Source: Zymoseptoria tritici IPO323 | Taxonomy: Eukaryota; Ascomycota; Dothideomycetes; Mycosphaerellales; Mycosphaerellaceae | DNA length: 64,000 nucleotides | Assembly: GCF_000219625.1 (NCBI RefSeq) | Contig: NC_018213.1 | Coordinates: 2,288,055-2,352,054 of the forward strand | Direction: 5' to 3' | In this document: one piece after another, positions 13,144-57,452 of the stretch | Numbering within the stretch: position 1 is the stretch's first letter | How the letters are laid out: each line of letters starts with the position of its first letter | Translations under genes and position numbers: made by a program | Notes under the pieces: model-generated | The model's database searches: none | The model's input: only the letters and a program-made list of their open reading frames with translations | What the model was told of the DNA's origin: nothing

Positions 13144-13148
13144 TATAA
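13144..13148 (+). promoter_or_regulatory. TATA box of YIYTQ precursor gene
   Basis: TATAA within ACATATAAGA, 115 nt before the ATG at 13259. The same spacing class (115-155 nt) recurs in front of most other members of the family in this island. Confidence 0.55.
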
Positions 13149-13258
13149 GACGAGCACTGGACTACCACTTCACGATCATCAGCACCAACAATCTCATCAA
13201 TTCCAAGCATCAACCACACCCTTCATTCGTCGTTTCCCACGACCACCAGGCACTCAAC

Positions 13259-13966
13259 ATGCAGTACCTCACCAACACCCTCCTCCTCGCCTCCCTGGCC
13301 ATCAGCAACGTCGCGGCAGCGCCAGTTGCGGACAACAGTGCCATCCAGGCTCGCCAGGATGTCAGCGACAGCTTCCAATCTGGCCCTCCCAACACCGGCG
13401 GCAATGGACTCAACGTCGCTGAAGCCGACTTCACCCACACCCAACCCAACCACAACCGCAAGGAGCGACGCCCGCAGAACGGTGCCGAGGACGACGCTCA
13501 TCACTTGGAAGAGCGTTCCAAATTGCCCTTTGAACCCGATTTTGGACACGACAAACGCGAGGCCTACATCTATACGCAGAAGAAGAAGGAGCGTCGCCAG
13601 GTTCCTGATATCGAGGCCCGCGAGGCTTATATCTATACCCAGAAGAAGGAGCGTCGCGACAACTCCAATCTTCAGGCTCGCAACGCATACATTTACACTC
13701 AGAAGGAACGTCGCGACCCAGCTGCTTACATCTATACCCAGAAGGAACGCCGAGCCCCAGCTGATGTTGAAGCCCGCAATGCTTACATCTACACCCAGAA
13801 GGAACGCCGAGACCCAGCTGATATCGAGGCTCGTAATGCGTACATCTACACCCAGAAGGAACGCCGCGCTCCAGTTGAAGCTCGCAATGCCGAAGTCGAC
13901 TACGATGGTAGCCATGTGACCCCGGGTCACCGCGACGAGGAGATGATGGACGTTGGCTCTGCTTGA
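13259..13966 (+). CDS. Secreted repeat precursor with six YIYTQ units (kexin-processed type)
   Basis: An intronless gene of 235 residues. It starts with a classical signal peptide (MQYLTNTLLLASLAISNVAAA) followed by the family leader PVADNSAIQAR. Residues 103-203 carry six copies of A-YIYTQ-K(K)(K)ERR. They are separated by short spacers ending in EAR or QAR (DPADIEAR, APADVEAR, DNSNLQAR), one spacer being shortened to DPA. Each unit ends in ERR, a dibasic Kex2-type site, so processing would release peptides such as ...EARNAYIYTQKE. The C-terminus EEMMDVGSA is nearly the same as in the gene at 14837. There is no cysteine in the repeat, unlike its relatives. The architecture matches fungal kexin-processed precursors (pheromone, KEP or ribosomal-peptide type). 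The product and its modification are unknown. Tyr-rich cores occur in dikaritins, but no DUF3328 gene is nearby. Confidence 0.85.
   Translation: MQYLTNTLLLASLAISNVAAAPVADNSAIQARQDVSDSFQSGPPNTGGNGLNVAEADFTHTQPNHNRKERRPQNGAEDDAHHLEERSKLPFEPDFGHDKREAYIYTQKKKERRQVPDIEAREAYIYTQKKERRDNSNLQARNAYIYTQKERRDPAAYIYTQKERRAPADVEARNAYIYTQKERRDPADIEARNAYIYTQKERRAPVEARNAEVDYDGSHVTPGHRDEEMMDVGSA
13565..13867 (+). repeat. Six in-frame YIYTQ-KERR repeats
   Basis: Six copies of a TACATYTAYACYCAGAAG-type unit with variable spacers. The Tyr-Ile-Tyr-Thr-Gln core is invariant while the spacers differ in length and sequence. This is the pattern expected when the core peptide is under selection. Confidence 0.85.
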
Positions 13967-14682
13967 ACGGAACTGTTGATGATGGACGCTGCACGGCCGC
14001 GGATGCGGAGTTTGTTGCTGAACTGCTGCGTTTTGACCGAATATTTCCCAGTCAATTTCGTTGGTGCTTGTATTCTTCGCGCAAGTCGCACACTCTCCTT
14101 TGGATCTCAGATATGAACAGGAATCTCAATCGCAAAGATTGTTACTTATGATTGAATGAAGATGTCTTTTGACATACAGCTTGCCTTTACAATTCCAAGC
14201 TTACTCCCTTTGACTTCTCTCATACAAGCTTGCATTTCCCCTCTTCATTCTTCCCGCCTACCTTCTCTTTGTTTCATGTTGACAGCGTCTTTACATCAGG
14301 ACGGACGGACTCTGATCTCAATCCAGGCATTCAACATCATTACGGATTACACCTGCGGCGAATGATGATTTTGATTTGAAGTCCGAGCGCTCTGATGGCG
14401 ACAGCCTCATCTTGGCTCGGTCTCCTTGCGAAGCATGCTTGGATCGAAAGCATGGATCAGCGTACAGCGTTGTGTCCCTGACGGCACCGCCTTACCTGCC
14501 CACACAGGCTGTCTTCATGTGCACAGCCCACGGCTACTTCACTACTCCTTGTTCTTGAGGAGCACATCTGACCACACTCTTGGTCGGTGCCTATTCCGGC
14601 ATCTCACGGCGACAAGCGCTGAAACAGGCAGATGCGGAGAGAAAAGCGGTGACGTTTGCTCTTCAAAATAGAGAAGATAACT
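13967..14682. other. Intergenic with 3' element shared with the next gene
   Basis: At about 14151-14175, ATGATTGAATGAAGATGTCTTTTG lies downstream of the YIYTQ gene. A near copy (ATGATTGAATGGATACGTCTTTTG) lies at about 15289-15312 after the next family gene. This suggests that the duplication covered the 3' UTR. No other gene is seen. Confidence 0.5.
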
Positions 14683-14688
14683 TATAAA
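14683..14688 (+). promoter_or_regulatory. TATA box of precursor gene at 14837
   Basis: TATAAA within AACTTATAAAAGC, 154 nt before the ATG. Confidence 0.55.
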
Positions 14689-14836
14689 AGCGCACGATCC
14701 GTCAGGGGTACTCCGGAACTTCTTCAACAGCATTCAGCTCTCTACCAGGTCCGATCAGGCGTTTCTTACCACCACAGGATCCACTTCAACACACCAAAGT
14801 CACCGATCAGTCAGACAAGAACGACCAATCGCCAAC

Positions 14837-15130
14837 ATGAAGATCTTTGCAAGCACTATCCTCCTCGCTGCCCTGCCCGTCGGCAACGTTGCTGGAGCTC
14901 CGTTGGTCATCAACAACGCTATCCAAGCTCGCCACCCCTCCGACAAACTCGCCCGCTCCGCCCATATCGATGCTCAGATCCACGACGACAAAGTCAAGGT
15001 CCGCGACGCGGCTCCCAATCCAGGCTGCTATGGCTACGACACTTCTACCTGTGGCCGCAAAACCAAGAAGGCCCGCGAGGTGTCGGCCATGGAGGAGCGC
15101 GAGGAGATGATTGATGTGGGCTCCGCTTAG
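14837..15130 (+). CDS. Small secreted precursor with a single C-x6-C loop
   Basis: An intronless gene of 97 residues. The signal peptide MKIFASTILLAALPVGNVAGA is followed by the leader PLVINNAIQARHPSDKLARSAH, which is almost identical to the leader of the gene at 17155 (DKLARSAHAD). The only two cysteines sit in a short loop, GCYGYDTSTC, followed at once by GRK and then KK, candidate processing sites. The protein ends EEREEMIDVGSA, like the YIYTQ precursor. Released by Kex2-type cleavage, the product would be a small disulfide-closed peptide near DAAPNPGCYGYDTSTCG. It belongs to the tandem family of this island. Function is unknown; signal peptide, shared leader and loop are seen directly, processing is inferred. 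Confidence 0.8.
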   Translation: MKIFASTILLAALPVGNVAGAPLVINNAIQARHPSDKLARSAHIDAQIHDDKVKVRDAAPNPGCYGYDTSTCGRKTKKAREVSAMEEREEMIDVGSA

Positions 15131-15693
15131 GTGCAAGATCTGTTGCAACGCTGTCGGAGGATAAGATCATCGTTCTGGCGGTTTTGTTCTTTTTCATTCG
15201 TCGGTGAATGGGTCTTTGAGCAGGTGGCAGAGTCTGCTTTTGGTTTGAGAGAGAGACTCTGCGGTATTGGCAAGCCATGATTGAATCATGATTGAATGGA
15301 TACGTCTTTTGGCTCGCAAGATCTGTCTGTTCTTTACTCCGAAGTAGGCTTTCTGAAGGGAGGCATGTTCAGGTTACCCGACTCGATCAGTGTTCCTGTG
15401 TCAAGAGGATCATCGCCAAGTGATAGTCGAAGCAAAGCTTTATAGTCTAGCAGAATGACCTCACCTCCTCCGCTCACCGAACAGCCTGCATCGCCAACCA
15501 ACGCACATGCAGCCCTCGACCAATCCGGCATACGCAGGCAATACCAGTCTCTCCAACATCTCCCATTCCCGGTCAGCTGGTTGTGGAAACCAGGCACCAA
15601 CTGCGGCATCATCGTCGTTGCAAGAGGTAACCTTGCGTGACATGCGGGAACGACGACAGTCCTCCCTCCACCGTACCGACGAGACTGCCGCGA
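15131..15693. other. Convergent intergenic region
   Basis: Lies between the stops of two convergent secreted-protein genes. It holds the 3' UTRs, including the copied 3' element near 15289-15312. No gene is seen. Confidence 0.5.
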
Positions 15694-16085
15694 TCAAGCA
15701 TCACTCGGCGGGTAGTTGGTCTGTCTGTGGCACTTCGCGTGCTTGCGGTCCGTCTCGTCCAAGTGGCACCTGGCGTACATCTTCTTGCAAGGCGAATCCT
15801 GCCAAAAGGGTCAGCAAAGTCAGGCACATGCTGCGTGTCGATTCAGACGGTGACACATACTTGTCTGCAGGGAAAGTAGTTGACCCCTGGAATCACCTGT
15901 GTGCCCTCAGGGGAGAATCTGCAGCCGCCGACGTGAGGGTAATTGACGGTGTTAGGGTAGCAAACCTGAGTGCCGTTGTTGTCAGTGATAGACTCTGGGT
16001 AACGTAGGAGAGAGGATGTACTGACGCCGTCGGCCAATGCGGTCGCGACCATAGCAAGGGCAGTGGCGAGCTGAGAAATCTGCAT
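15694..16085 (-). CDS. Small secreted six-cysteine protein
   Basis: Three exons on the minus strand (16085-16026, 15965-15861, 15798-15694) give 89 residues. Intron 1 is 60 nt (GTCAGT...CAG with a CTGAC branch) and is a multiple of three. Intron 2 has a canonical GTATGT donor and removes an early stop. The signal peptide MQISQLATALAMVATALA is followed by a mature chain with six cysteines (VCYPNTVN, GCRFSPEG, PCRQDSPCKK, RCHLDE, KCHRQTN), enough for three disulfides. There is no recognised domain. Size, secretion and cysteine content resemble fungal effector or antimicrobial candidates. It is inserted, antisense, among the loop-peptide precursor genes but shares no leader with them. Confidence 0.72.
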
Positions 16086-17154
16086 GATTCTCGTTGTGTT
16101 TTGATTGGTGATTCGCGGTTCGGAAAGAAAGGAAAAAGCTGCGACGTGCAAGCGGAGGAAATACAGCAGGTTGGCGCATCAGAGTGGTCACGTTTTGCAG
16201 GCTCAGGGATGATGCCGAGTCCAGGCCAGGGTTGGTTCACTTCCCGGTCATCAGGCCGTTGAACTCACGTCAAGGTTTGAACGGTGACCACTCCGATGTG
16301 CTAACCTGCTGATGAGACGGCTGTATGTTGTTCTCGATTCATGCTCTCGGACCATTGGACGAAACGACCGGAATGAGTATTGAAAATTGAAGGAGGAGGC
16401 CGTGATGAGATAGACTAGCGGTATTGAACTAGTTCTATATAAGGTCGATCGCAGGGGTAACCCGAAGATGCGACAATCGAAAAAGCGACGCTGGAGACCG
16501 ATATGACTTGACCTTAGCTACACCACAGTTCCTGGTCTGGACGCAGGCTGCATGGATCATGTAGAGTGTGTTCCTGGAAATGACACCGCCACGTCCGGAC
16601 CGTTGCAAGCCCCAGAGACCATCTTGACGAGGTCGGAGGCGGCGATAGTTCTGATCCGAGATTCAGGTATGCACATGGAGCTGTACTTCACAGTCTCCAG
16701 TGTTTGTCTTAGGGCGGACTTCCTGGTCACACACGGGGCGAGGCGTCAAGTCACAATGCTCGCTCGGTTGCGCTCAGACAGCCTCAGACTGAACAACCGC
16801 TATAACTGCACTCAGCCTGTGGGTCGCATACAGAACATCCACTGTGAGAGCTTCCTCGCCATCGCCGGCGATTGGATCAGAGGTCTATCGTGTCGGCAAT
16901 GCCGCAAGACCGGGATCAGGACTCGAGTGCCATGTACCGTGTACGAGTGGCTCGTGCGAGGACCAGCGATAAAACTGCGCCCTGCAGTTGTCCGAAAATA
17001 GCATCGAGCACAGATGGCTTGTCGTCTTTCCAAAAGCCTCGGACGCACCAAAAGCGGGCACGATTCCACCATTTACCGTAACCAGTTCGATCTTCCCTTC
17101 ATCACCTCGACGAAGCAAAGCTACCAACGCCTTCAAGACCGACAAAGCGTCAAC
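16086..17154. other. Intergenic, 1.07 kb, with an orphan TATA-like site
   Basis: A CTATATAAGG sequence lies at about 16434-16443, but the next ATG (16552) opens an ORF without a signal peptide or family leader. I cannot support a gene here; it could be the remains of one. The leader of the gene at 17155 must begin in the right part, where GATAAAA at about 16968 is the only TATA-like candidate. Confidence 0.4.
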
Positions 17155-17448
17155 ATGAAGCTCTTCGCAAGCAACATCCTCTTCGCCGCTATGGCCATCA
17201 TCAGCAATATTGTGGCCGCGCCGCTTGCAGCCGACCATGCCGTCCAGGCTTTTGACCACACGGACAAACTCGCTCGCTCTGCACACGCCGACGTCGGCTC
17301 TGGCTCTGGCGATGCCGTCAACGATAATCAGCGCGCCCGCGGTGGTGGCAAGAACCCCAAAGGTGGAAGCAGCGCAGAAAGCGGATATTACCCTGGCTCC
17401 GCAGGCGGCGCCTGTTACCCACCCACTTGCCATCGTCCGACCGATTGA
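17155..17448 (+). CDS. Small secreted precursor with a C-terminal C-x4-C loop
   Basis: 97 residues in one exon. The signal peptide MKLFASNILFAAMAIISNIV and leader APLAADHAVQAFDHTDKLAR match the gene at 14837 closely, including the DNA around the ATG (CAACATGAAG, then CTCTTCGCAAGC here and ATCTTTGCAAGC there). A Gly/Ser-rich linker leads to GGACYPPTCHRPTD at the extreme C-terminus, where the only two cysteines form the loop. There is an RAR step but no clear dibasic site, so processing is less certain than in its relatives. A second Cys-bearing stretch (DCAKESNGGCPASVV) lies downstream at about 17485-17550 in another frame. I could not find a convincing intron to join it. Confidence 0.72.
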   Translation: MKLFASNILFAAMAIISNIVAAPLAADHAVQAFDHTDKLARSAHADVGSGSGDAVNDNQRARGGGKNPKGGSSAESGYYPGSAGGACYPPTCHRPTD

Positions 17449-18193
17449 AGAGTTCACTCAGACCTCAACCTCGCCTGAGTGAAGGACATCATCGACGAAC
17501 AAGACTGCGCCAAGGAATCCAATGGAGGCTGCCCGGCGTCGGTCGTAAGGTATGCACGACACGGCACGGGCTCGGCTTGGGTACGGTCATGGCTCTGCCC
17601 GCGGAGGAAAGATTTCAGTGGAGGAAGATGGCTTCGGTCTTGGTCTTGGTCTTGGCATTTTCTTTTCCGACTCGTTTAAGTTAGTTCTACCTCAGCATGT
17701 ACATATACATTTGGCTGCCACTGTTTCGTCTCCAGCAGCGGCCGTTCTCACAATCTCCCGGACGCTCATGTCCTGTTCGTAGGGTAGCGACCGTATCGCC
17801 CGGTGCTTTGACCGGACCTTGACCTGCTCGAGCCAGCACGAGCCCGCGGGTCAGATGAGACCTTCGCACAGACAGCGTGGATGGAAGTCTTGACAATGAC
17901 CGGAGAACCAGTCCTGCACGCAAGAGAGCCGCCACATGCAAAGCAGGCTGTGCAGTAAGGTCCGTGAGTGCGATCCGCTAATAAACATCCGATCCGCTAC
18001 AGCCTCGAAAGCGTGGCAGGGATCCGCAGTGTAAGGCAAGCTTGACTCCAGCATACACCTTACAGCTCACAGCAGCGCCGCCGAAACGTATGCCAGGCAT
18101 CCCAGCTGGAACCGCACCTCAGATATGGCCGGTCCTTGTTGAGGCATCAGGCGGATATGACGCTCATGCCCCCCAGAATAGGATCACGGCGGA
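17449..18193. other. Intergenic between two precursor genes
   Basis: Contains the possible orphan Cys-bearing frame near 17485-17550 (see the gene at 17155). Otherwise no gene is seen. Confidence 0.4.
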
Positions 18194-18198
18194 TATAA
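18194..18198 (+). promoter_or_regulatory. TATA box of precursor gene at 18329
   Basis: TATAA in GGCGGATATAAGATG, 135 nt before the ATG. The block GCGGATATAAG is exactly repeated at 21375-21385 before the decayed copy, and a close variant (GGCGGGATATAAAG) precedes the gene at 22505. Confidence 0.6.
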
Positions 18199-18328
18199 GA
18201 TGGGGCCACGAGTCTCGCGTTGAAATGGTCGAGTATCCGACTCATCACAACAGCAGGTTCGCAAACACCCATCAACAACGGAACGGCCATCAAAAGAACT
18301 GTTCGACACCAACACTACCACCACAAAC

Positions 18329-18817
18329 ATGAAGCTCTCCCTCAGCGCTGTCCTCTTCGCCGCCATGGCTGTCTCGAATGTCGCTGCCGCGCCGGTCGCC
18401 GCCGACAATGGTGTCCAGGTTTGTGCAGTACTCTCCAACTGCAGGCCCAACTCTGCTAACACTCAGGTAGGCCAACGTTCGTCGGGCTGAAGCGCCACCC
18501 CCACTCGAGCACAGCGACGACCCGCCTTCTGGAGGCGCTTATTGCGGTGACGGAGACTGCCGTAAAGTTCGACGACCCCTCTCGTAACAACGTCGCGCAG
18601 GTCGCTGACACTCAGGCAGGTCAAATCTCGCCGTGACACCGGAGGTCACGAGGATCCCAACCATGGTTTCCAACCGCACGGCGTTTGGTGCAGTCCCGGC
18701 AACCCGGATCCGGGTTGCGGAAAAGTTCGCCGATGGACGAAGGATCCATATGAGAACGACCAAGGGCCCCCATCAACTATCGGAGGAGGCGCTTACTGCG
18801 GACCTCAGGGTTGCTAA
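18329..18817 (+). CDS. Secreted precursor with three different Cys loops
   Basis: Exon 1 (18329-18418) encodes the signal peptide MKLSLSAVLFAAMAVSNVAA and the leader APVAADNGVQ. Intron 1 (18419-18470) ends at a GGTAG acceptor. The acceptor five bases upstream would give an immediate stop. Exon 2 carries GGAYCGDGDCRK. The frame then meets a stop after VRRPLS (18585-18587). A second intron restores a long, clearly related frame: 18567-18619 (53 nt, weak GTTCGA donor, CTGAC branch) is my preferred choice. The restored frame holds KSRRDTGG, the loop WCSPGNPDPGCGKVRR, and a C-terminal GGGAYCGPQGC. Preferred exons are 18329-18418, 18471-18566 and 18620-18817 (127 residues). If intron 2 is not used, the protein ends at 18587. 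RR sites flank the first two loops. Confidence 0.6.
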
Positions 18818-19823
18818 GCCCTCGCTCCAGGACTCATGAGATGGAATCCATGAGCGCCGTCGTCATGATCATCTGCTCTGGCGAAGGGATGATTGGAAGT
18901 GTGATCTGAAAGTCTCGGATTCTGTTGGAGTGTGGGCTTGGGTTCATTCGCAACGGCTTCAAACCTAGGGATGTTGTTGATCACAACTCCTCAATTGCCT
19001 CGTCTGCTGTCACTCTTTTATCTTGAGCAATGGTCGTCTCATCTTGTTATTACGGCAGCAATCAGCTTTCTGCACTCATACGTACACGCTTTGCCTTCAT
19101 TTTGAATTCCTGTAATTACATGAGCATCGAACAATCAGGCATCGCTGCTCACAACACAATGAGCATGAAACGAGACCACGAGGCATGCTCCTCACCACAA
19201 CGAACAGCTCGAGGTACAGCCGGCTCCAATATCATAACCACTACCACGATCTGCTCGAGACCCGCGCAGCTTCGATCAGCACCACGCGAGCTCGAGAACA
19301 TGCTTCGATAGACGCAGCTACTCGGTAGCACGAGAGCAGGCACTCATCCTGTAGAATCTCCAGCAGCCTCATGATCATCATCGAACGAAACTCGTCGCAA
19401 CGATCGATAAATGCGTGGAAGACCACCAGATCGAGATTGAGGCCATACTTCCGCAAGGGGGCTGCCAGATCTCCGCGCATGGCTCTCATCATGATAGCAG
19501 TCCTGAAACGTCGCTGCTCGCTGCCTAGCTGCACAAAGCTTCAGCGTACAGCACGTGCGAAGGCATCCCGGCTGTGGCGACTCGCGGATGTGACACAACG
19601 TGGTAGAGCCCTGTTCTGAGAACACGCATGCTTTCCGGCACCGTGGCCTGCCGCCTGTGACGACGCCGATGTCGCTCTGCTCTGTTGCGACAACCGCATT
19701 CGATGGGTCTCCCAGCTGGGCAGAATCCGCAGCATACGTCTACCGTGGATAGTCCCTGCTCTGGAAACACGCAGACACGTCGACGGTGGCTCTGGCACTC
19801 TGCTTACTCAGGGTAGAGTGGGC
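18818..19823. other. Intergenic, 1 kb
   Basis: Short ORFs on both strands, none with a leader or domain I can recognise. It probably contains the 3' UTR of the gene at 18329 and the promoter of the gene at 19958. Confidence 0.4.
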
Positions 19824-19830
19824 ATATATG
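19824..19830 (+). promoter_or_regulatory. TATA-like site of precursor gene at 19958
   Basis: CATATATG in GGGCATATATGGCG, about 130 nt before the ATG. It is a weaker match than in the other family members. Confidence 0.4.
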
Positions 19831-19957
19831 GCGCTCACCATTTCCTGGAAGTTCTGCCGCTGGTCCAAGCAATCGAAAATCATCAGCTTCCACAAGATCC
19901 ATCCTCTTGAAACCTTTCTAGTCGCACAACCAGTTGTACGATACGCAAACATCCAAG

Positions 19958-20965
19958 ATGAAAGTCAACACAAGCACTCTCTTTTTCGCCGCCTTGGCCA
20001 TCAGTGGTGTCGCCGCTGCGCCGATCGCAGACGCTCTCGGCATCGTCCAACCCGTGGCCCGTCATGAACCCAGAGATGAAGGATATTGCGTTTTCGGTTG
20101 CAGAATCACAGCCATCTTGTCCCGTCGCCAGAATGCCGACCAACTGACCCGTCGTGACCCCGGAAAAGGCGACCCAGAGTACTGCCCTGACGGCGATTGC
20201 TGGACCAAAGTCAAGACAGTCCGTCGCCAGAATACCGACCAACTGACCCGTCGTGACCCCGGAAAAGGCGACCCAGAGTACTGCCCTGACGGCGATTGCT
20301 GGACCAAAGTCAAGACAGTCCGTCGCCAGAATACCGACCAACTGACCCGTCGTGACCCCGGAAAAGGCGACCCAGAGTACTGCCCTGACGGCGATTGCTG
20401 GACCAAAGTCAAGACAGTCCGTCGCCAGAATACCGACCAACTGACCCGTCGTGACCCCGGAAAAGGCGACCCAGAGTACTGCCCTGACGGCGATTGCTGG
20501 ACCAAAGTCAAGACAGTCCGTCGCCAGAATACCGACCAACTGACCCGTCGTGACCCCGGAAAAGGCGACCCAGAGTACTGCCCTGACGGCGATTGCTGGA
20601 CTAAAGTCAAGACAGTCCGTCGCCAGAATACCGACCAACTGACCCGTCGTGACCCCGGAAAAGGCGACCCAGAGTACTGCCCTGACGGCGATTGCTGGAC
20701 GGTACCCGGAAAAGGCGACCCAGAGTACTGCCCTGACGGCGATTGCTGGACCAAAGTCAAGACAGTCCGTCGCCAGAATACCGACCGACTGACCCGTCGT
20801 GACCCGGAGAAAGGCGATGGTGACAGAGGCGAGTAAGGCGGTGACACTGGCAGTGGGCACAAAGCCAAGGACCGCAGGGAGGCTCTACGTTCGACTCTCC
20901 GTCCTGTTAGTGGCGACAACAACAATGGCGGATCGTTTCAAGAGCCTTGTGGGGACAATTGCTGA
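19958..20965 (+). CDS. Secreted precursor with seven YCPDGDCW loops in 99-bp repeats
   Basis: The signal peptide MKVNTSTLFFAALAISGVAA precedes the leader APIADALGIVQPVARH. A first, divergent loop (GYCVFGCR...SRR) comes next. Then come 33-residue units QN(T/A)DQLTRR - DPGKGDPEYCPDGDCW - TKVKTVRR: six start normally and a seventh core follows a truncated junction (20701). Each unit has two RR sites, so kexin would release DPGKGDPEYCPDGDCWTKV-type peptides with one disulfide loop, like yeast alpha-factor precursor logic. The simple frame stops at 20836. However, that TAA lies inside a 45-nt GT-AG candidate intron (20833-20877, donor GTAAGG), a multiple of three. Beyond it the same frame continues to GGSFQEPCGDNC and a stop at 20965, resembling the C-termini of sister genes. 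Either 292 or 320 residues. Confidence 0.82.
20123..20832 (+). repeat. 99-bp tandem repeat array (coding)
   Basis: Units start at 20123, 20222, 20321, 20420, 20519 and 20618, a period of 99 nt. They are almost identical at DNA level, including third codon positions. Visible differences are GCC/ACC in the first unit and CCA/CTA in one copy. A shortened unit begins at 20701 after GGTACC. The last one (20768 on) is diverged. Confidence 0.93.
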
Positions 20966-21379
20966 ATGCGGATCGAGGAGAGAGATACGAGCTGTGTGGG
21001 AAATGTCGGTTGTTGGTCTTCACTGCTTGATCGGCAAAGGAGTTGCACCGGGAACCGTCGTCAAAGGAGTCTGTTACTGCGATGGTTTATGATACTTTTG
21101 TAGCATCGTCAACATCGCTCATTGCCGACTGCAGTCTCATTCAGAGTGATTCGTTCCGACGACTGGTACACGCATTGGCTCTCTGCTCCAGTGGCCGAAG
21201 TCACGGACCGGTCTCGCGTGCTGCTCACAAGGTATCCTTCAACGAAGAGCGTGATGGAACCGAAGTCGAATTCGCGGCATACCTGCATCGTCGTGAGTGT
21301 CGATAAAAACCGCGAAATATCGTTTTGGTGGGTGCGTAAGCTTGGTGCGTAAAGCGGGAACTTTGGTAGCAGACGCGGA
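20966..21379. other. Intergenic
   Basis: About 400 bases after the repeat precursor. No gene is seen. Confidence 0.4.
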
Positions 21380-21384
21380 TATAA
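21380..21384 (+). promoter_or_regulatory. TATA box in front of decayed family copy
   Basis: TATAA in GACGCGGATATAAGTGCG. The GCGGATATAAG block is identical to that of the gene at 18329, but the first in-frame family sequence lies about 250 nt or more downstream. Confidence 0.45.
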
Positions 21385-21413
21385 GTGCGTGAGCTGAAAG
21401 ACGCTCACGCATC

Positions 21414-21493
21414 AGGCTTAGCGTTCACGCATGCGTGAGTTTCGGTGATACACGATTCACGCATCTGACGCAGTAGGCTTAGCGTTCACGCAT
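21414..21493 (+). repeat. Direct repeat AGGCTTAGCGTTCACGCAT, two copies
   Basis: 19-nt exact copies at 21414-21432 and 21475-21493 (61 nt apart). Extra CACGCAT/ACGCATGCGT words occur around them. They sit between the TATA box at 21380 and the decayed coding sequence. Confidence 0.7.
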
Positions 21494-21632
21494 ATGGATT
21501 AGCGCGGACTTCACTCGTAGAGTCAAGTTCTTCCGAGGACTGGGCTTCCTGTCCTTCGACGCACTTTCATTAGCATACAGAATTCAGCCCAGTAGCGACA
21601 GCCCCTCAATTTCGCATTGGTCATGCACTGGC

Positions 21633-21914
21633 TTGGAAATGCCGGCTTCTCACCAAAGGGGCGGACACTGCCTCACTCTCTTGGTCCGCGCTTTGAGACA
21701 GCTTGCAAGACATTCGTTGGCTACCCTAGCTGGCGCGATGAACGACAACGCCATCCAGGCTCGCGAGCCTCCGACAATGGTCTCAATGGAGACCTCAGAC
21801 AACGCCATGGAGCGCCGCGAAGCATGGGATGGGAATCCTGACGATGTGAGTGTCATGGCCAACTGCCACGGCAACGATTGCGGCAATGTCAAGATCCGTC
21901 AAGCCCTGAACTGA
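21633..21914 (+). pseudogene. Degenerate copy of the loop-peptide precursor family
   Basis: The frame contains the family leader (MNDNAIQAREP, compare NSAIQAR and NNAIQAR), an RR site (AMERREAW) and a Cys loop ANCHGNDCGNVKIR before a stop. The N-terminal part before the leader is rich in Arg (LLVRALRQLARHSLATLAGA) and does not make a good signal peptide, although it aligns with where one should be. After the stop, the same frame continues with DGNIVTVKVR, a second worn unit that echoes GNDCGNVKIR. I read it as a decayed gene. Alternatively an unrecognised 5' exon supplies the signal peptide. Confidence 0.5.
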
Positions 21915-22353
21915 GAGGAGGGCAATGGTGACGGCAATATCGTCACAGTCAAGGTCCGTAGTTCTATTGGAATCGAGGCAATCCTCGTATAGAACTAGAT
22001 TTGCTAGGGCCCTTGAAGGGCGCTGGGAACCGGGGGGTACAACCTGTATCCTGCATACAAGAATAGCGCGGACGGTCGACAAAGTCTGCTTGAGCACATT
22101 TCGGCAATCAATTGAGAGATCGCATTGGCGCGGAAAGGCCGGTGTGCGGTGACATGCCCAAGGGGCTATGCACTACTTTCTGCTTTTGGTCCAGGTGTTG
22201 TTATCAGAGTTTCCCACCACCTCATCCCTGATGATGAGAGGTCAGCTTTGTCCGGGACCCTGTCTCGATCGCGAGGATTAGAACTAACGACGTGTCCGGA
22301 CTCTTGGGAACCGCCATCACGGTGTTGTCCGTCCTCCGATGTCTTTGGCGGGA
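21915..22353. other. Intergenic
   Basis: Holds a worn second unit of the decayed copy near 21925-21990, then no recognisable gene. Confidence 0.4.
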
Positions 22354-22359
22354 TATAAA
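22354..22359 (+). promoter_or_regulatory. TATA box of gene at 22505
   Basis: TATAAA in GGCGGGATATAAAGCGC, 151 nt before the ATG. Confidence 0.55.
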
Positions 22360-22504
22360 GCGCAGCGTACCTTCCCACTTATGCCCTCGAACCAACTCTC
22401 CGCTTACGCCTTTGGACCAATTGTTTCCTCGCAAGTCCCTCCTTCCGGTGCCTGATACACATACACATCCCAGACCTGTGTCTCTACCTCCACCTTCGCG
22501 CACT

Positions 22505-22941
22505 ATGGTGTCTGGATCCGTTATGGCGGTTGTCGCCATCTTTGTCAACTCCGTTCTCGGTGGAGTCTACTGCAACACTAAGCCCAGTGTACGCTGGCAA
22601 TCGCCCACTCACTGAATACATCACTAATTCGCGAGGCAGGGAAAATACTTTGATTGCGGTGCAAAGGGAATTCGCGGCGAATTTGTCGACATTTGTGGGA
22701 GTTATTGGTGTAAGAACAGTTGCGGCCCAACCTACAAGGAAACACTTTGCACGGCGTATCAGTCAGTTCTAAGTGCCTACTCTTCATATGAGCCGAAACT
22801 GACCTAGCAATTAGCGATCCCGGTCAACCCGCCACTCCCGACGATCCCGGCGACCCCATTCATGGAATTCCGCCAAAGTTCGGACATCCGGCGGAGCCTC
22901 CCACCTGGAGACTTGCGGACTGTTACTGCCGCGGTCCTTGA
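22505..22941 (+). CDS. Secreted cysteine-rich protein, distant family member
   Basis: Three exons (22505-22588, 22640-22761, 22815-22941) give 110 residues. The start MVSGSVMAVVAIFVNSVLGG is a signal peptide. The mature chain has cysteines in VYCNTKPS, FDCGAKG, DICGSYWCKNSCGP and TLCTAY. A Pro/Asp-rich stretch (DPGQPATPDDPGDPIHG) follows, then LADCYCRGP. All junctions are in phase. Beyond the stop the sequence still looks coding. A short intron (22934-22973, weak donor GTCCTT) would join a frame ending GYAPCGDEC at 23062, strikingly like the EPCGDNC end of the gene at 19958. The direct frame after the stop reads NGGNTGSGRKLKER then KRDGDCSDDGVC. It has no dibasic repeat. The promoter type and terminal loop link it to the island. 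Confidence 0.6.
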
Positions 22942-23692
22942 TCCCTCCTCCTCAACGGCGGCAACACTGGCAGCGGACGCAAACTCAAGGAACGCAATTT
23001 TTCCAAGCGTGATGGAGACTGCTCGGACGACGGGGTATGCACCTTGCGGTGATGAGTGCTGAGCGGAGATCAAGGAGGGCGATGATTTCGGTGTAGGATC
23101 TGTTTTGAGGGCGAGTTGCTGCGATATTGTTCCTGCTTTGCTTTTACAGTATCATGAATGTTACCTTGTTCTCATTCTCATGTACGGTGGCCAGGCAGTC
23201 TCGTGGCCGCAGTCTCATTCCTCTGTGAAGAAACCCGTTTCGACGACTCGACCAACTGTGTGATCTCAGCCACGGCAGCCACAAGCCCGATTCCGTCTCG
23301 TGCACTCATGCTGAGAAGTCCACCAATAGCACAGAAGCAGGTCACCTCGATCGCAGTGCACCTCCACCTGTTCTGCTGCGGCGGTGTCCCGCGGGGCCTC
23401 ACTGCTGGCGTGTGTGAGGCAAGGATATCGTTGCCAGGTTCTTCCATGTGTTGTTGAAAGAATGTTCGTACAAAGGCGCAGTATGATGACATCAAGCTCA
23501 GTCGTTCTCAAGTGCATGGGACAGGGGTGACCATCCGACGTTGAAACACAACATGAATCGTCAAATGCCATGGCCATGCGGCCATGGTAGACCAGCATCG
23601 TGAAACTCGACGACTGTGGCTGAACAGAACCCGAGCTTTCACTTGATCATGATGTGTTGACAATCGTTTCCTTTCCGCAAATCCTAGCGAGC
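22942..23692. other. Intergenic, may include 3' coding remnant to 23062
   Basis: The first 120 bases show loop-like coding remnants in two frames (PCGDEC and GDCSDDGVC). The rest has no supportable gene and contains the promoter of the ASST-like gene. Confidence 0.4.
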
Positions 23693-25723
23693 ATGCGGTC
23701 CGCAATATTGCTCGAACTCTTGAGCTCCTGCCTCGTGGGCATCGTCGTAGCCATTCCTAGAGGTCAGACTTACCACTCAGTAAGCCCGCGCCCATGCTCA
23801 TCGGATGTGCACTGTACTCACAGCAAGTCCAGAGACCCGATATCCTTGCGCCTATCCTTCACAATCGCGTAGCGTCCCATGATGCTGTTGAGCCAGGATA
23901 TATCTTCTTCTCCGTTTGGGGTGGTGTCGGTCAATGGGCGCCGTACATATACGACAGCGATCTGGTGAGTTGAAGATTCTTTCTCAGCATCAGCGGCGTC
24001 CATCTCTTTGGCGTTCATCGCTTTCAGCTTCGACGACGTTGCTCAGTATCGGTGCATCCCCAGCCAGACTGCTCCATCTCGTTGACGCTGTCTCTTTCTC
24101 GTCGACAAATGCTTTGTAGCTCGCCAATCATTGCATCCTCGGACCAGACGAAATCGTCAGCTAATCTTCCAACAGAACCTCGTGTGGTCAGGCTATGACC
24201 CAGCCTTCTCCGCGCTCGGCCACTACAACTTCCAAGCCCACCACTATGCCAACGGAACCCAACTCCTCTCCGTCTTCCGCGGCATGTCCGTGGGAGGTCG
24301 TGGCCGCGGCTCTGTCCTTCTCCTCGACGACTCCTACACCATAACACACAACATCAGATCCAGCAGTCCAGCCTTTGCGCTAGATTTCCACGAAGTCTCC
24401 ATCCGAGCAGAAAGTAACACGGCCATTATTACCGCATACCCAACTCGGCGAATGGATCTTTCGTTGTTCGATGTCACCGAAAGTATGGGCTGGGTGCTGG
24501 ACTCGTTGTTCCAGGAGATCGACCTGGACTCCGGCTCTGTGGTCTTCGAATGGACAGCCTCGGACCACATCCCGCTGGAGGAAACGACGATCAGTCCGGC
24601 GTTGAAGCATGGTGGCGGTCTGTCGAGTCACTTTCCCTTTGACTATTGCCACGTCAACAGCGTCGACAAGTTTGCCAACGGCGACTACTTGATCTCATCC
24701 CGGCATACCAACACCATCTACCGCATTTCGCACGTCGATGGGTCGATCCTCTGGCGACTGAACGGAGACAATTCTTCCACCGCAGAGACGTACATCCCGC
24801 TGCAGGATTACAACTTCGCTGCACAGCACGATGCCCGGGTGCGCAGGGAGTCCGCTAATGGCAATGAGATCGAGCTCACTCTGGTCGACAATGCCGATAA
24901 CGGTCAGTATTACACGCAAGACTATTCGTCGGCGCTGCGCGTGGCGATCTCGTTTGCTTCTGGAAGAGCGACCAGCCGTCTACTTCAGACATGGCTCCCA
25001 TTCGAGGACGGCCAAGCCGAACACCAAGGCACCGTACAATATGACATGCCCGTCACGGGGAATACCCTCGTGAGCTGGGGCGAAATTGCTGAATTCAGCG
25101 AGTTTTCGCCCTCCGGAAAGAGAGTGTTAGACGTGGCGTTCGCGGACGAACTTTTGCATGTGTATCGGGTGATGAAAGCTTCCTGGATCGGTCGGCCGAA
25201 GACGAAGCCGGACTTGTACATGTATGCGAGAAGCCGGGATGAAAAGACGCAGTTCTACATGAGCTGGAATGGAGCCACAGAAGTGAAGGAGTGGAGGTGT
25301 TTTGCCATCGAAGGCGACGTACGCGCGAATCTAGGCGTGGTCAAAAGAGAAGGATTCGAGACGCATTTCGAATGGGATGGCGAAGTCGATCGTGGTATGG
25401 TCGAAGCTCTGGATGGAGACGGGCATGTGCTTGGGACTTCGGAGGTGGTCGACCTCACGATGCCGCCGACGCACATGGCGGCGAAGTGTGGCGTTGCGGA
25501 CTGTTCGTTGCAGGTGCTGCAGGTCCCGAAGCCGGAAGAAGAGAAGGAAGAGGCCACTATGGCACCTGATCTGCTAGTCGAGGAACCGCTGCGGGCATGG
25601 AACATGCACGTTTTGCAACTGGTTTGGCCGCTCCTGGTCGGATGGCTATTCGGCAGATTCGGCCATCAGGTTTGGCCATTGTCGTACCAGCATTCGGCAA
25701 TAGTTCGTCGGCGGAGTGATTGA
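23693..25723 (+). CDS. Secreted arylsulfotransferase (ASST)-like protein
   Basis: Three exons (23693-23779, 23833-23964, 24176-25723) give 588 residues. The second intron is long for this window (211 nt). The N-terminus (MRSAILLELLSSCLVGIVVA) is a signal peptide. The body shows the fungal ASST pattern: DAVEPGYIFFSVWGG, LVWSGYDPAFSALGHYNF, FHEVSI, WVLDSLFQEIDLDSGSVVFE, DYCHVNSVDKFANGDYLIS, GSILWRLNG, and NFAAQHDARV with later beta-propeller blades. The C-terminus has a hydrophobic helix (VLQLVWPLLVGWLFG), a possible membrane or GPI-type anchor. Bacterial ASSTs move sulfate between phenols. The role of the large fungal family is not established, and I cannot confirm catalytic residues. It directly follows the peptide-precursor island. 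Exon 1/2 could also join 9 nt earlier (23824). Confidence 0.75.
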
Positions 25724-31123: not shown

Positions 31124-34100
31124 TCATACCATCGCCTCGCTCCCCATGCCTTCACTCAACATACTCCTCCGACTCATCCCACTTCTCCTTCCCTCATCCA
31201 CATCCATCTGTATCGCTCCACTCTGAACCCTCACCACTTTCCTCCCCTTTCCACCATCGTTCTGCACCAATACCTGCGCCGGACAGACCACGATTTCCTC
31301 GTCTCCCTCGCCAATGTCATCGCCCTTCTTGACCACCAATGGGAACAGCACGATCTTAACCACTGCATTCTCCGCCGCGAGGTCTTCGTTCGAGCTGAAG
31401 AATCCCGATCGCTCGTTCATCAACGAAGCGTTGAAGTGCACTTTCCGCACGAGGTCGCCGTTGGTGTCGTATTCGGGTTGTAGGGGTGGGAGCATGATAT
31501 ACTCCGCGCGCTGGGTACGCATCTCGATTGCGAGGTCAACGGCAATACCAATAACGCGTTGCAGCGAGGTGAGGAGTTGCTGTTCGGAAGTTGAGGGAGG
31601 TGGCAGTAATGCGCACAGTACACCGAAAATCTCATGCGTCACCGCTTCGGTGTCCATTCTGCATTGTTCGGCAAAGTTGGGACGTTTCGATAGCAAAGTC
31701 AGCGTTGTAGCGCGCCAGTGAGCGACTGCTCGCGGTGGACCGACGTCTGAGAGCAGTTTCTCGAGGGTCTTGAGCTTTTGTCGCTGCTCGCGATCCATAC
31801 CGAAGAGGTAGCGGGTGAAGATGTATTCCCAGACCATGGTCATGACGACGGACATGAACACGTCACGGCGGCGTATGCGGTCACCGAGAAGCTTGTCAAC
31901 GTCGGAGCCATCGAGCACTGCATTGTCTAATCGAGCTTCGATCTTATCGTCGTTGAGGTCGGTAGACAGGCGGCAGACGCGATTGTCGGATAGCTTGGAG
32001 AAGCGAAGAACCCACTGCTGGACGTGCTGACACAGCTTCTGACAGGACCCGTCAAAGTAGTCCTCATCCCTCTGCACTAAGAAGTCGCTGGAGTTGGAGG
32101 ACTGAATCTGCACCTGCAATGCGCGGATCTGTTCCGTGGCAATGTCGAGCTGCTCGCGGAGGCGAAGGATTTCCGAATTCTTGTCGGCGAGGGCAGATGC
32201 AATTTCCGCTTCCAGAATGTCTTTCATGCCGGAGGTGATTCTACCATGCTCCTGTTGCATGGCCTGCAGATCCCGGCTGGTCGATTGCCATTGTTCGTGT
32301 GCTTCGGCATGCTCGGCCTGGAGAGTCGCATAACGACCGTTCGTATCGTCCACCAGATTCCTGTTAGCTTCTGTGAGACCATTGTTCATCTCAGTCAACC
32401 TGGCAATTTCATCTTGCAGCGGCTGAAGCATCGCCTTGATCTGATTGATCTCCGCATCCTTTTCTTGCAATTGGAGGTCGCGGGCATGGAGTTCGTCTTG
32501 CAGACCTCCACCCTCTCCCATGGTCACATCATTGTTCGATCGTGCTTCCTGAAGTGCTCTGTTCTCAGCGACCAAGTACTCAAGACGAGACTCGAGGTCA
32601 TTGATGTGCATGCTCTGACGCTTCCGCACGCTCGGCGGTCGCGTCGGCGAGACTTGCGACTGTGCGGCATCGCCATATCCCTGCTGTGCATTGTTAGTAT
32701 CATCATAATCATCATTGAAACATTCAAGACTTACAAAAACATCACTCATGTTATCAGCGGCGCGCGAAGCGCTACCATCGTTCAATTCATCGTCTTCGTT
32801 GAGCGGCGGAGTTGGCGGCGCTTCAAACGGAGGAACCATGTTGGCGGGGCGATTAGCGTCAACGGCTGAGCCCGAGTCAGATCGGCGGCTCGCGGCCCGC
32901 AGGTCACCTGACAGATTGATGCGTCTCAGGGACGGGCCTGTAGAACTCTGATTGCTGTGATTGCTGCCACGGCTGAACGATCGGAGCTGCTCTGGCGTTC
33001 GATGTTGAAGAGTGTTGTTGTTGGATCGATTGCTCAGGACGCTGGCGGAGCGTACGTCGGGTGCCATGGTTTTGCGTTGTAAGGATCGGTCGATGTTGAC
33101 CGTGTCGTTGTCCTCGTCGACTGCTGGCCATGATAGGCGGCGAATGAGGTCGTCTGTCGACAGTGGGTTGCTTGCGCCTCTTGCGGTGTTCATCGTTACC
33201 ATCGCGGATTGATCTGGCGACAGCTCCAGCTCTCTCGCGCGAATGCCCTGCGGCGTCTGCGTACGATCAATGGCCTTGGTTCGCTCTGGCCCACCGACAT
33301 CTGTGTCTGCCTTGCTTCTTTTGACTGCATGGTGTTCTTCCTGGATCGGTCGCAGTGGTGTCCTTGGGCTCAGCGGGTTGTTCGACGGAGACATTGTCAT
33401 GTCGCGGGAGCCATCCCGACTTGCCCTGCTATTGTGTCCTCTTGGCGTCGATGCGAAATAGTCGTTATTCTGGTCTCTGCTCGCAGTCCCAGTCTGCACA
33501 GACGAGGCATCTGAAGGCCCTGGAACAACGTCCGGAGGCGATTGAAACAGGTAAGACGTTCGGTCTTTAGTGCTAGGCATCAAAGGAGTCCCCGTGCTAG
33601 CGCTGAGGTTCCGAGCATGAGCATTCAAGGTTTCGGAACCACCAGCATCAGCTTGCTTCTGAGGGGTCGTGAACTCTTGGTCTTGATCCGGAGTTGAGCC
33701 AGTCGAGATATGCAACGGCTCGAGAGACCTGCGATTCCTCAGACTCTCTTGAGACGAGCTTGTCCGGACTACGGCTGGAACCTCGCGGCTTGACCGTGGT
33801 GTTTGCTCCTGTGAGTGTGCGTAGCCACTGTCTCTGATAACATGATGTCCTTTGCCAGACGAATTGTCTTGTAGAGAGCCAAATGACCATGCTGGCGCGT
33901 CTGAAGAAAGGTCCCGTGTCGGTTCTGTTTGCGGAGGAGATGCGGCTCGCCCACTGGTTGCTGCAAGAGCAGCACCCCCTCCCATTGCGGCTATTTCGAA
34001 GCCAGACATTCCACTGTGGGAAGCCTGCTTTGGCTCGTCCAACTGCGAAGTATCCTTGCCAATGGCGACCGGAAGTGATTGAGACACCTCAGAGGTGTGC

Positions 34101-37100
34101 AAGTAGCCTTCAGGTCCAAATCGCGAATTTGATCGACTCGCATTGCTTGAACCGCTAGGCTTCTCGACGTTCGTGGCCTGCGGACCCGTCTCTCGGTCCG
34201 AAAGCGCGGCCGAGCGCTCTGTGTCGTCGGGAGAAGATCCCACGACATTCCCTGCAGCCTTCAACTTCTTCTGCAAACGCTTGTTCTTCTTGTACGCTTT
34301 GTACGCCTTATCCATGTCGTCTACATCCATCTCGGTGCCTCCGACGAAAATGTTGCTGGCTGGATCAACGTAGTCGGAAGAAGTCGCAATCTGTCTATTG
34401 GGTTGCTGTTGGGCTTGATCGTATGCAGCAGGTGTGGATTCGTCCAGAGAGTGTTCTGGGACTGCCGGGTTGGCGACGTCGTCGTTGACGGCGAGCGTCA
34501 GGACAGCGGAAGATTCGGCAGCGACTTCTCCATCACGTTGTGTTTTCTTGCCCTTCTTGCCTTTCTTTCGCTTAGTAGTCGTGAATGAAAACTCTTCCGG
34601 ATCAACCTGAGGTTCCTCCATCGAGGCTTCAGGGTCGCTCGCCAACGCCTTCTCAAGCAAAGCGGGATCAAAGCCAGTGCCGCTCAGGCCCTGACTGATG
34701 GTGTCGTTGAAGTCGTCAGTGGCCACGGGAGGCTCCGTCGCTGGGCCAGGGATTGCTGAACCCAGCTGTTCAGATGGTGTCACTGCAGCATCGAGTGATG
34801 GACCGGGGACTGCTATCTGCTCTTCAGGTTGCGTCACTGTGGTATCGAGTGATTGTTTGCCCTTCTTGTTCTTCTTCCGCTTACTCGTTGTCGTGAAGAA
34901 GGTCTCCTCCGGGTCGGTCTCAGGCAATACTCCAGGTGGCGAGGCTCGGCGATGGAAAACTGGGTCGTCGATCACCATGTCCGGATTGAAGCCACTGCCT
35001 GCCAGGCCTGCAGCCAATGTGGCCGCGAAGTCGATGTCTTGGGAGGGGTTTGGTGGTGATCTCGGTGTGGGCTCCTCTTCTGCGACAGATGCTCGTTCAA
35101 CGACAACGCTGGCCTCGTTGTCTCTTTCGATCGGAACGCTCGCTGTTTGGGCGGATGTCGTGAATGGGTCGACCTCCGATCTCTTGATGGATAGCTCATC
35201 GTGCTGCTCCGGACCGACCTCTTGGACCCCTTCCGCGACCAACTCTCGCTCGGCAACGACGCTGGCCGCGTTTTCTGTTGCGACGGGAACGCTCGCGGTC
35301 TCGACGGATATTGATGATGGGTCGACCGCCAACTCCTGGGTAGATAGCTCATCGTGCTGCTCCGGACCGACCTCTTGGACCCCTTCCGCGACCAACTCTC
35401 GCTCGGCAACGACGCTGGCCGCGTTTTCTGTTGCGACGGGAACGCTCGCGGTCTCGACGGATATTGATGATGGGTCGACCGCCAACTCCTGGGTAGATAG
35501 CTCATCGTGCTGCTCCGGACCGACCTCTTGGACCCCTTCCGCGACCAACTCTCGCTCGGCAACGACGCTGGCCGCGTTTTCTGTTGCGACGGGAACGCTC
35601 GCGGTCTCGACGGATATTGATGATGGGTCGACCGCCAACTCCTGGGTAGATAGCTCATCACTTTGCTTCGAATTGACGTCTTGAACCTCTTCAAGCTGTG
35701 CAGGCGTGGGCAACCCGCTTTGCTTCGCCTTCTTCTTTTGCTTCTTCGACTTCTTGGTAGAAACGCCACCCCAGTCTCCGTCCGTTGGGTCTGCGGCCGC
35801 GATGGAAGGCTCTTCCCAAGCGCTTGGGACCGCTGGACCGTCCGTGCTCGGCTTGAGTGAGGCTATGACCGTTTCGCTTTCTTGCTCTGCACTTGTTGCG
35901 ACGTCGTCTGCCACAGCAGTGGGAATTGAGCCTTGCTTCGCCTTCTTCTTGTCCTTCTTCGACTTCTTGAGCGCGAACTCACCCCAGTCATCGTCAGCAG
36001 GTCGATCTTCGACTTCGGCTTCCGCACTTTTCGTAAAGCTCTCAACGGCTTCTATTGGCGTCTCTTGCGAGAGCTCCCGGGAAGATGAGATGGGCTCTGG
36101 CGCGATCGGAATTGCCACTTCTTGTTCCACCATAGATGAGTCCCTCTTTGCTTTCTTCTTGTCCTTCTTCGATCTCTTAGGTGCAGACCCAGCCCAGTCT
36201 TCGTCAGCAGGCCCGTCCACGACTTCGGCTCGCGGAGTTTCTGCCAGATTCTCGGTGGCCTCTACCGGCGCCTCTTGGGTTAGCTCCTGTGAAGAGGAAG
36301 GCCGCTCAGGCGCACTCGAGACTGCAGCTTCTGATTCCACAACAGAAGAGTCTCTCTTTGCTTTCTTTTTGTCCTTCTTCGATTTTTTGACCGCGAAGGC
36401 ACTCCAACCATCATTATCCAATTGTCCCAGACCTGCTGGAGGCTCTGCTTCCATCGAGGCATAAGTTGGTGTCGGCTGAATCTGCTCTATGGTCTCCTCG
36501 ATGAGATTAGTTGGTGTCGGCTGAGACTGCTTCACGTTCTCCTCGGTGACATGAGTGGCTTCGGTCTCGATCTGAACAGTCTCTTCTTCGCCCATGGCGA
36601 GAACCCCCTTCTTTGCCTTCTTCTTGTCCTTCTTCGACTTCTTGACTGCGAAGCCGCCCCAGGCGTCATCCGGCGGTTCGTCCAAAGCCGTGGCGGGTTC
36701 GCCTTCTACATTGTTATCGACAGGTGCTGACTGAGGCTCTCTCATGATCTCGTCGGTGACTTGAGTCGGTTCTGCTGCAGCCGGAAAAGGCCGTTCTTCG
36801 GTGTTGTCGACAGCTACTGACTGAGGCTCTCTCATGATCTCCTCGGTGACTGGAATCGGTTCTGCTTCAGTTGGAAAGGTCCGTTCTTCGGTGTTGTCAG
36901 CAGGTGCTGACTGAGGTTCTCTCATGATCTCCTCGGCGACTTCAGTCGGTTCTGCTTCAGCCGGAAAGGTCCGTTCTTCAGCGGAGAAAGTTTCGTCTTC
37001 AGCGGCTGCCGACAAGTCCTTCTTTGCTTTCTTCTTGTCCCTCTTGGATTTTTTGGTGGAGAAACTTGCCCATTCGTCCACTTCCGGCGCCCCGGCGACT

Positions 37101-49546: not shown

Positions 49547-50599
49547 TGCGAATGGTTCTCAAGTAAAATGCGGATATGCTTTACGGGTCGGTTGGGTGGC
49601 GCCTGGAAGCCGCTGATCCTATCGCAACGGTGTCGCAGTCGCGGAGCACAATTGATATGATCGTAGCGGCCGCGGTTAATTGCTGATTCGAACTCGATGC
49701 GAGAGCTCGTTCTCGTTGCGCTCGAAAGAATTGTAGGTCATGTGTGGTCGTTCTCGTCTCGTCGTGTGGTCTCGTAGGTCGGTCGCAGGCTGTTGTTGTT
49801 CGTGATATGACGATTCGGGCCTGTACAACGGTGCGAAGTAATGCAGGAATATGCACAATCCAAATTCTGCGGAGTACTTTGAGGGGAGGAGTCCGATTCA
49901 ATCACCCCATTGTGTGAATGGTCGTGGTCGTTGGTGGAGAAGTCTCTCGCGAACGATATGCGTTGTCATGCAGCTCGCCCGCCCGAGGTGGCTGGGCTGA
50001 CCGGAAAACACAACAGATCTACAGCTAATAAAGTTAATGAACGATCGGTCCCAGCTCGACTGTTTCAATGCGAGTGTGGCGTTCTGTGGCTGTGCTTCTG
50101 TTGGACAGTTTCATTGTGCTGTAGAGTATCTGAGAAATTGATGTTGCAACGTGAGATGAATCGAACTTTTCATGTTTCGCTGGTACTACAACACCACTAC
50201 CTTACACACGCTATTGCATACGCCTTGGCGCCCGATATGCGAGCCCAATGCCGGGCAGCTTAATCCTGGCTAGTGAGTCCGAGCTTTGTGATCCGCCGAC
50301 TGCAATGACAGCGATGGCATTGAATCTGCGAGACACCGAGGCCTTAATCATCGCTCCGAGGACTTGCTTCCTCCTCGAGCTTGTGCGAATCTCGAAACCT
50401 CGTCGGACTTCGCGTGCGCCTGCATCGGTGACTCTTCCGTTGATGGTGTTGGCGTTGATATCATAGCCATCATGCGGACCTGTTGACATTGAAAACAAGC
50501 TCTCGTTATTCGTCATGAAAACCGGCAACGCGTTGGCAGGATTCCGCGGTGATTCCGATTCTGCAATTGACATCGATCTCGCCCGAGCATGAACATGCA
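49547..50599. other. Intergenic, LAH promoter / CSTF64 3' side
   Basis: About 1 kb. A minus strand ORF of 129 codons (50211-50600) begins at the CSTF64 stop and has no recognisable features. I do not call it a gene. Confidence 0.45.
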
Positions 50600-57151: not shown

Positions 57152-57452
57152 TGTACCTGGTTTCGAATGGGATGAAGGAGAGTGGACAGTCGTCGTTGTC
57201 GGTGTTGGTACTTGAATCGAGTGCAAGGAAGAGATTTGGTTGTTGATTTCGCAGCAAGATGTAGGGAAAGAAAGGTGCAAGATACCGAGCATTCCCTGAT
57301 CCAGCAGGAAAGCCCGGTGAGAAAAGTACGAGGCGACTGCCATTTCCTGTTCCAGCCAGGAAGTGAGACAGGAACGACCCGGTAACATAAACGACTTCAG
57401 GTTCGTGTGGGTTTTGTCCCATCGCTGCCAATACGATGTGAGATGTTCAAGA
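57152..57452. other. Intergenic between two small minus strand genes
   Basis: About 300 bases, the upstream region of the tail-anchored gene and the 3' region of the VEDQRR gene. Nothing else is seen. Confidence 0.45.

Follow-up and report, generated by a model that had tools for sequence, protein, structure and literature searches.

A phytosulfokine repeat gene in a row of secreted-peptide precursors

Does a fungus encode a plant peptide hormone, and could it also carry the enzyme that matures it? The question is raised by a locus of Zymoseptoria tritici IPO323 on contig NC_018213.1, of which a stretch of 64,000 nucleotides was analysed (C6:2288055-2352054; hereafter the window, to which unprefixed positions refer); genome-wide searches covered 39,686,251 bases in 21 contigs. 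The locus consists of a plus-strand row of small secreted-peptide precursor genes, named here by their starts, whose last neighbour is an arylsulfotransferase (ASST) gene. The first precursor, 13259, contains six exact copies of YIYTQ, the sequence of phytosulfokine (PSK)-alpha (PMC11534595; PMC11756074). The initial annotation had named YIYTQ as the core of this gene and missed its identity with the PSK pentapeptide.

13259..13966, plus strand: PSK-repeat precursor, an open reading frame (ORF) with signal peptide, leader APVADNSAIQAR, six YIYTQ cores and tail EEMMDVGSA
13565..13855, plus strand: the six YIYTQ cores, starting at 13565, 13628, 13688, 13727, 13784 and 13841 (motif search)

The N-terminus of 13259 is hydrophobic and, as read from the sequence, signal-like, and the protein lacks cysteine. 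It thus combines an exact PSK core with a predicted secreted precursor, as would be expected of a fungal PSK mimic. We favour, with some reserve, the reading that 13259 encodes a fungal precursor of the plant hormone, released to act on host receptors.

The repeats appear to be maintained at the protein level. Across the six copies, the block AYIYTQK..ERR carries at least 11 nucleotide changes, 11 of them synonymous and none amino-acid-changing. In a simple test, which assumes independent changes and takes no account of gene conversion, this excess gives p values of 4e-8 to 9e-7 (transition/transversion weights 1 to 5); within YIYTQ alone there are 5 changes (p 2e-4 to 1.3e-3). Genome-wide, the YIYTQ-coding pattern has 13 matches, six inside 13259 and seven elsewhere, the latter equalling the seven matches of a reversed control. 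For an assumed 100-1000 repeated pentapeptides and assumed compositions, one equal to YIYTQ is expected by chance 9e-6 to 3e-3 times.

Each copy is directly preceded by Ala and closed by RR. Upstream, copy 1 has KR-EA, copies 2, 3, 5 and 6 have AR-XA, and copy 4 has RR-DPAA. Dibasic-bounded repeats, which define kexin-processed repeat proteins (KEPs), are thus present in 13259, as they are in 19958, where RR flanks EYCPDGDCW repeats. A KR/RR plus X-Ala layout is that of alpha-factor-type precursors, which are cleaved by kexin and then by dipeptidyl aminopeptidase. The arrangement of the YIYTQ copies resembles such a precursor, and the genome holds one kexin P-domain match and two DPPIV_N matches.

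The adjacent arylsulfotransferase

23693..25723, plus strand: ASST gene, identified by the PF14269 profile, with three predicted exons

This gene lay outside the region covered by the initial annotation and was not seen there. Its product matches PF14269 with an E value of 6.3e-48 and 164.1 bits (cut-off 27). The exons, with predicted splice sites, are 23693-23779, 23824-23964 and 24176-25723; the first is signal-peptide-like, and a weak hydrophobic segment lies at the C-terminus. Residues H356, N358, R374 and H436 of AssT align with H159, N161, R176 and H218 of the fungal protein, and we take the first three AssT residues to have active-site roles. An AssT H436N entry in the PDB shows Asn in the column of H218, at which the fungal ORF keeps the AssT nucleophile. 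The fold and the aligned active-site residues are those of Cpz4 and Escherichia coli AssT, for which PDB titles give small phenols or caprazamycins as the known acceptors; a peptide acceptor for the fungal enzyme is only proposed here.

About seven PF14269 genes occur in the genome, one of them beside the PSK-repeat gene. The family is widespread, with 372 prokaryote stretches confirmed to carry it. A profile search for four sulfotransferase families that use 3'-phosphoadenosine 5'-phosphosulfate (PAPS) gave no match within the window, PF03567 being uninformative.

Elsewhere, at C1:2208364-2211973, a match to the PAPS-type sulfotransferase family PF17784 lies ~2 kb from a PF14269 match; a further PF14269 match is at 2222985. 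The arrangement recalls the Cpz8/Cpz4 pair.

A shared leader around changing cores

The PSK gene is one of several precursors with a common leader, whose other members and neighbours are as follows.

14837..15130, plus strand: leader member with core CYGYDTSTC and tail EEMIDVGSA (ORF and pairwise comparison with 13259)
17155..17448, plus strand: leader member with core GGACYPPTC close to the C-terminus (ORF and pairwise comparison)
18329..18817, plus strand: leader member with loops AYCGDGDC, VWCSPGNPDPGC and AYCGPQGC and with RR sites (pieces read separately; splice sites inferred)
19958..20836, plus strand: leader member with RR-bounded repeats containing EYCPDGDCW (7 copies), plus GYCVFGC (ORF listing and repeat count)
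21639..21914, plus strand: degraded relative with a NAIQAR leader trace and CHGNDC, without intact leader (ORF listing)
22506..22941, plus strand: gene of a different, Cys-rich small secreted protein, interrupted by introns and outside the leader family (read in frames 0 and 1; exon limits provisional)
about 22957-23052, plus strand: stretch GGNTGSGRKLKERN..CSDDGVC, similar by eye to the stretch following the stop of 19958

The initial annotation described a tandem family of secreted precursors in which the leader is kept and the cores change, and this picture holds. Single comparisons of the leaders give E values of 1e-9 (13259 and 14837) and 3e-14 (14837 and 17155), and in an alignment of all five the identity to the first leader is 38-46%. 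The mini-loops it reported are present, 13259 being without cysteine, and the decayed copy it placed at 21633 corresponds to the degraded relative at 21639. Its count of five intact genes needs correction: 13259 (235 aa), 14837 (97 aa), 17155 (97 aa) and 19958 (292 aa) are intact plus-strand ORFs, whereas 18329 stops after 53 aa and requires an intron at 18419-18470 to reach its loop. Its distant member at 22505 has to be dropped, since the gene at 22506 lacks the leader and only the following stretch resembles the post-stop region of 19958.

In 18329, a second putative intron of 53 nt (18567-18619) would add the loops CSPGNPDPGC and CGPQGC. The two proposed introns have similar lengths and similar 3' ends (CTAACACTCAGGTAG and CTGACACTCAGGCAG), which hints at a duplication of exon plus intron.

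The last nine residues of 13259 and 14837 are identical at 8 of 9 positions (EEMMDVGSA and EEMIDVGSA), around unrelated cores. Such conservation of leader and tail suggests a cassette-like exchange of cores. With the 13259 protein as query, a whole-genome search gave only weak matches, to 14837 (E 0.033) and to a C2 locus (E 0.048). A consensus-leader query, which was built from the island leaders and is thus not an independent test of the family, found 11 places, five in the island and six on five other chromosomes (two on C2, and one each on C4, C7, C8 and C11; E 3e-9 to 0.04). A Cys loop and dibasic sites accompany all six weaker matches outside the island, in the same frame on C11, C7, C4 and at C2:527k, and in another nearby frame on C8 and at C2:1.92 Mb; on C11 the ORF is intact, KR-bounded and carries three loops. 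The pattern of a leader with changing cores therefore holds beyond the island.

Clear RR sites occur in three of the five leader-bearing genes (13259, 18329 and 19958), in agreement with the initial annotation, so that it is uncertain whether kexin processes 14837 and 17155. Counted post hoc and by eye, Tyr adjoins Cys in 6 of the 7 different loops encoded by intact island genes, as against 1 of 9 different loops outside the island.

At C2:523146-523704 lies a PF17784 match whose C-terminus is hydrophobic, ~4 kb from the leader relative at C2:527650-527733, with at least one other long frame in between. Within the island, the 19958 repeat protein (19958-20833) scores above the Pfam cut-offs for DUF6191 and Hyd_WA, most likely because of its repeats. 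A small minus-strand frame between island genes (15843-16085) has a signal-like start and Cys residues and gave no match in a Pfam search.

Proposed mechanism and alternative explanations

In the reading that we favour, the 13259 product would enter the secretory pathway, where kexin would cut after KR/RR and perhaps also after monobasic AR. A Ste13-like dipeptidyl aminopeptidase would take off X-Ala (in copy 4 Asp-Pro, then Ala-Ala), leaving Tyr as the first residue, and a carboxypeptidase would trim the terminal basic residues. The YIYTQ(K..) peptide would be freed into the leaf apoplast and engage the PSK receptors of the host, which dampen pattern-triggered immunity. The neighbouring mini-loop genes would be sister cassettes on the same leader, with the same processing and other targets.

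Since PSK activity requires sulfated tyrosines (PMC11756074), a secretory ASST next to a gene with six PSK copies would form a natural maturation pair. We regard this enzyme as the best candidate for adding the tyrosine sulfates, a step that we nevertheless hold to be less likely than not. The full proposal, that the fungus makes mature tyrosine-sulfated PSK itself, with precursor and lumenal PAPS-independent ASST as a maturation unit and the mini-loop cassettes as further substrates, strikes us as possible and, if anything, slightly more doubtful than that single step.

Several points weigh against these proposals. The PSK family of Pfam (PF06404) matches residues 119-131 of 13259 (13 residues) only weakly, at E 0.54 and 11.8 bits against a curated cut-off of 25, and is outranked by the unrelated family BamE (E 0.24). 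In plant PSK1 (AHTD-YIYTQ-DLNL) Asp precedes the Tyr (PMC13157962), whereas all six copies in 13259 have Ala. The C-terminal limit of the core is not clean either, as K follows in all six copies and then E or K, so trimming may leave YIYTQK(E). Four of the six copies are preceded by AR only, not KR/RR. Regarding the enzyme, no repeat-peptide frame with at least four copies, a blunt criterion, was present in the 11 stretches flanking the six other PF14269 genes. ASST-type enzymes use aryl-sulfate donors, and because the window lacks a PAPS-type match, no such donor would be supplied at the locus.

A variant of the favoured reading, in which our confidence overlaps with that in the reading itself, runs as follows: 13259 is a true PSK precursor, the peptide is released unsulfated, with weak action or completion by host enzymes, and the ASST is an unrelated neighbour. 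We rate this a substantial possibility that nevertheless falls short of an even chance. The breadth of PF14269, in prokaryotes and in this genome, and the missing PAPS-type match (with the limit on PF03567 given above) fit it well, whereas the placement of one of only about seven ASST genes close to the PSK gene, with a secretory signal peptide and kept active-site residues, speaks for a link.

Could the peptide instead be the fungus's own signal or surface peptide, its identity with PSK being coincidental? We know of no plant hormone resembling the sister mini-loop cores, which counts in favour of this explanation. KEPs, moreover, are present in almost all fungi, where they have roles in the cell wall, as toxins and as pheromones (PMC6339444). 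We nevertheless consider it unlikely, because the expectation of an exact YIYTQ by coincidence is so low (9e-6 to 3e-3) and YIYTQ repeats are reported from several plant-pathogen genera (PMC8618561).

Far less probable is a dikaritin-like ribosomally synthesised and post-translationally modified peptide, in which UstYa oxidases would cyclise the Tyr-containing core and the PSK match would have no meaning. Dikaritins likewise have Tyr-containing repeated cores and kexin sites, the genome holds at least 61 UstYa matches, Z. tritici is listed among species with ustiloxin-type repeats (PMC6339444), and on C2 one leader relative adjoins another KR-bounded repeat gene and has a UstYa match ~4 kb away. 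However, a dikaritin cluster would include a UstYa gene, and none of these matches falls within the window, which weakens this explanation; among the matches listed, the closest one on this contig scores below the cut-off and is separated from the PSK gene by ~312 kb. A decaying or non-coding island without function is scarcely credible: 21639 is degraded and the post-stop stretch of 19958 resembles other members, but the changes between YIYTQ copies are synonymous only and four long frames are intact.

The C2 repeat gene itself (~1.9227-1.9233 Mb) encodes seven copies of AKRDEAYDYP near UstYa matches at C2:1919340-1920080 and the leader relative, and the C2 locus at ~1.92 Mb looks like a dikaritin-type cluster.

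Comparison with known systems

The pentapeptide of plant PSK precursors (PF06404) is identical to the core of 13259. Fungal YIYTQ repeats were found by database mining in several fungi, including Zymoseptoria sp., with functions unknown (Yuan et al. 2021, via the review PMC8618561). These homologues, like 13259, have a signal peptide and several YIYTQ copies, and the review's account of them has no word on a leader shared with mini-loop genes, a tandem island or a sulfotransferase neighbour. A 2025 paper, by contrast, states that a PSK homologue is found in no fungal genome and that Verticillium boosts host PSK signalling (PMC12618502). KEPs also resemble 13259, being secreted precursors whose repeated cores are set off by dibasic sites (Le Marquer et al. 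2019, PMC6339444); the main text of that survey does not mention phytosulfokine or YIYTQ and mentions Zymoseptoria once, for ustiloxin-type repeats. The YIYTQ repeat itself is thus of a known kind, thinly reported.

A functional parallel is RaxX/raxSTAB of Xanthomonas, in which a pathogen's tyrosine-sulfated mimic of a sulfated plant peptide has its sulfation enzyme encoded in the same cluster, as is proposed for 13259; mimics other than RaxX are described as lacking maturation enzymes of their own (PMC8618561). RaxX mimics PSY, not PSK, and the neighbour of 13259 is an ASST propeller enzyme. RaxST, in contrast, is a PAPS-type sulfotransferase. A small search of open-licence literature, by title and abstract opening, gave no fungal PSK gene with a sulfotransferase neighbour and no mention of the leader family. 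As far as this limited search reaches, the leader-sharing island is new, and so is the adjacent ASST, which retains its active-site residues.

In plants, PSK signalling dampens immunity. The 13259 locus speaks against the statement that fungal genomes hold no PSK homologue, and the published view that only Xanthomonas is known to secrete a ready-made peptide hormone becomes directly testable at 13259 and its ASST. With the leader-sharing island and the kept active-site residues, self-sulfation of a plant-hormone mimic by a fungus can be put to the test, and the ASST is a candidate enzyme for tyrosine sulfation in fungi. If true, self-sulfated fungal PSK would represent a eukaryotic tyrosine-sulfation system unrelated to TPST. 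The leader and tail shared around unrelated cores suggest how new secreted peptides may arise, via core exchange.

Other observations in the window

On the minus strand, 31127-49558 is a single open frame of 6144 codons; a Pfam search with both of its halves gave no match at E 0.01. At 57321-57830 lies a tandem-repeat stretch that is open in several frames on both strands.

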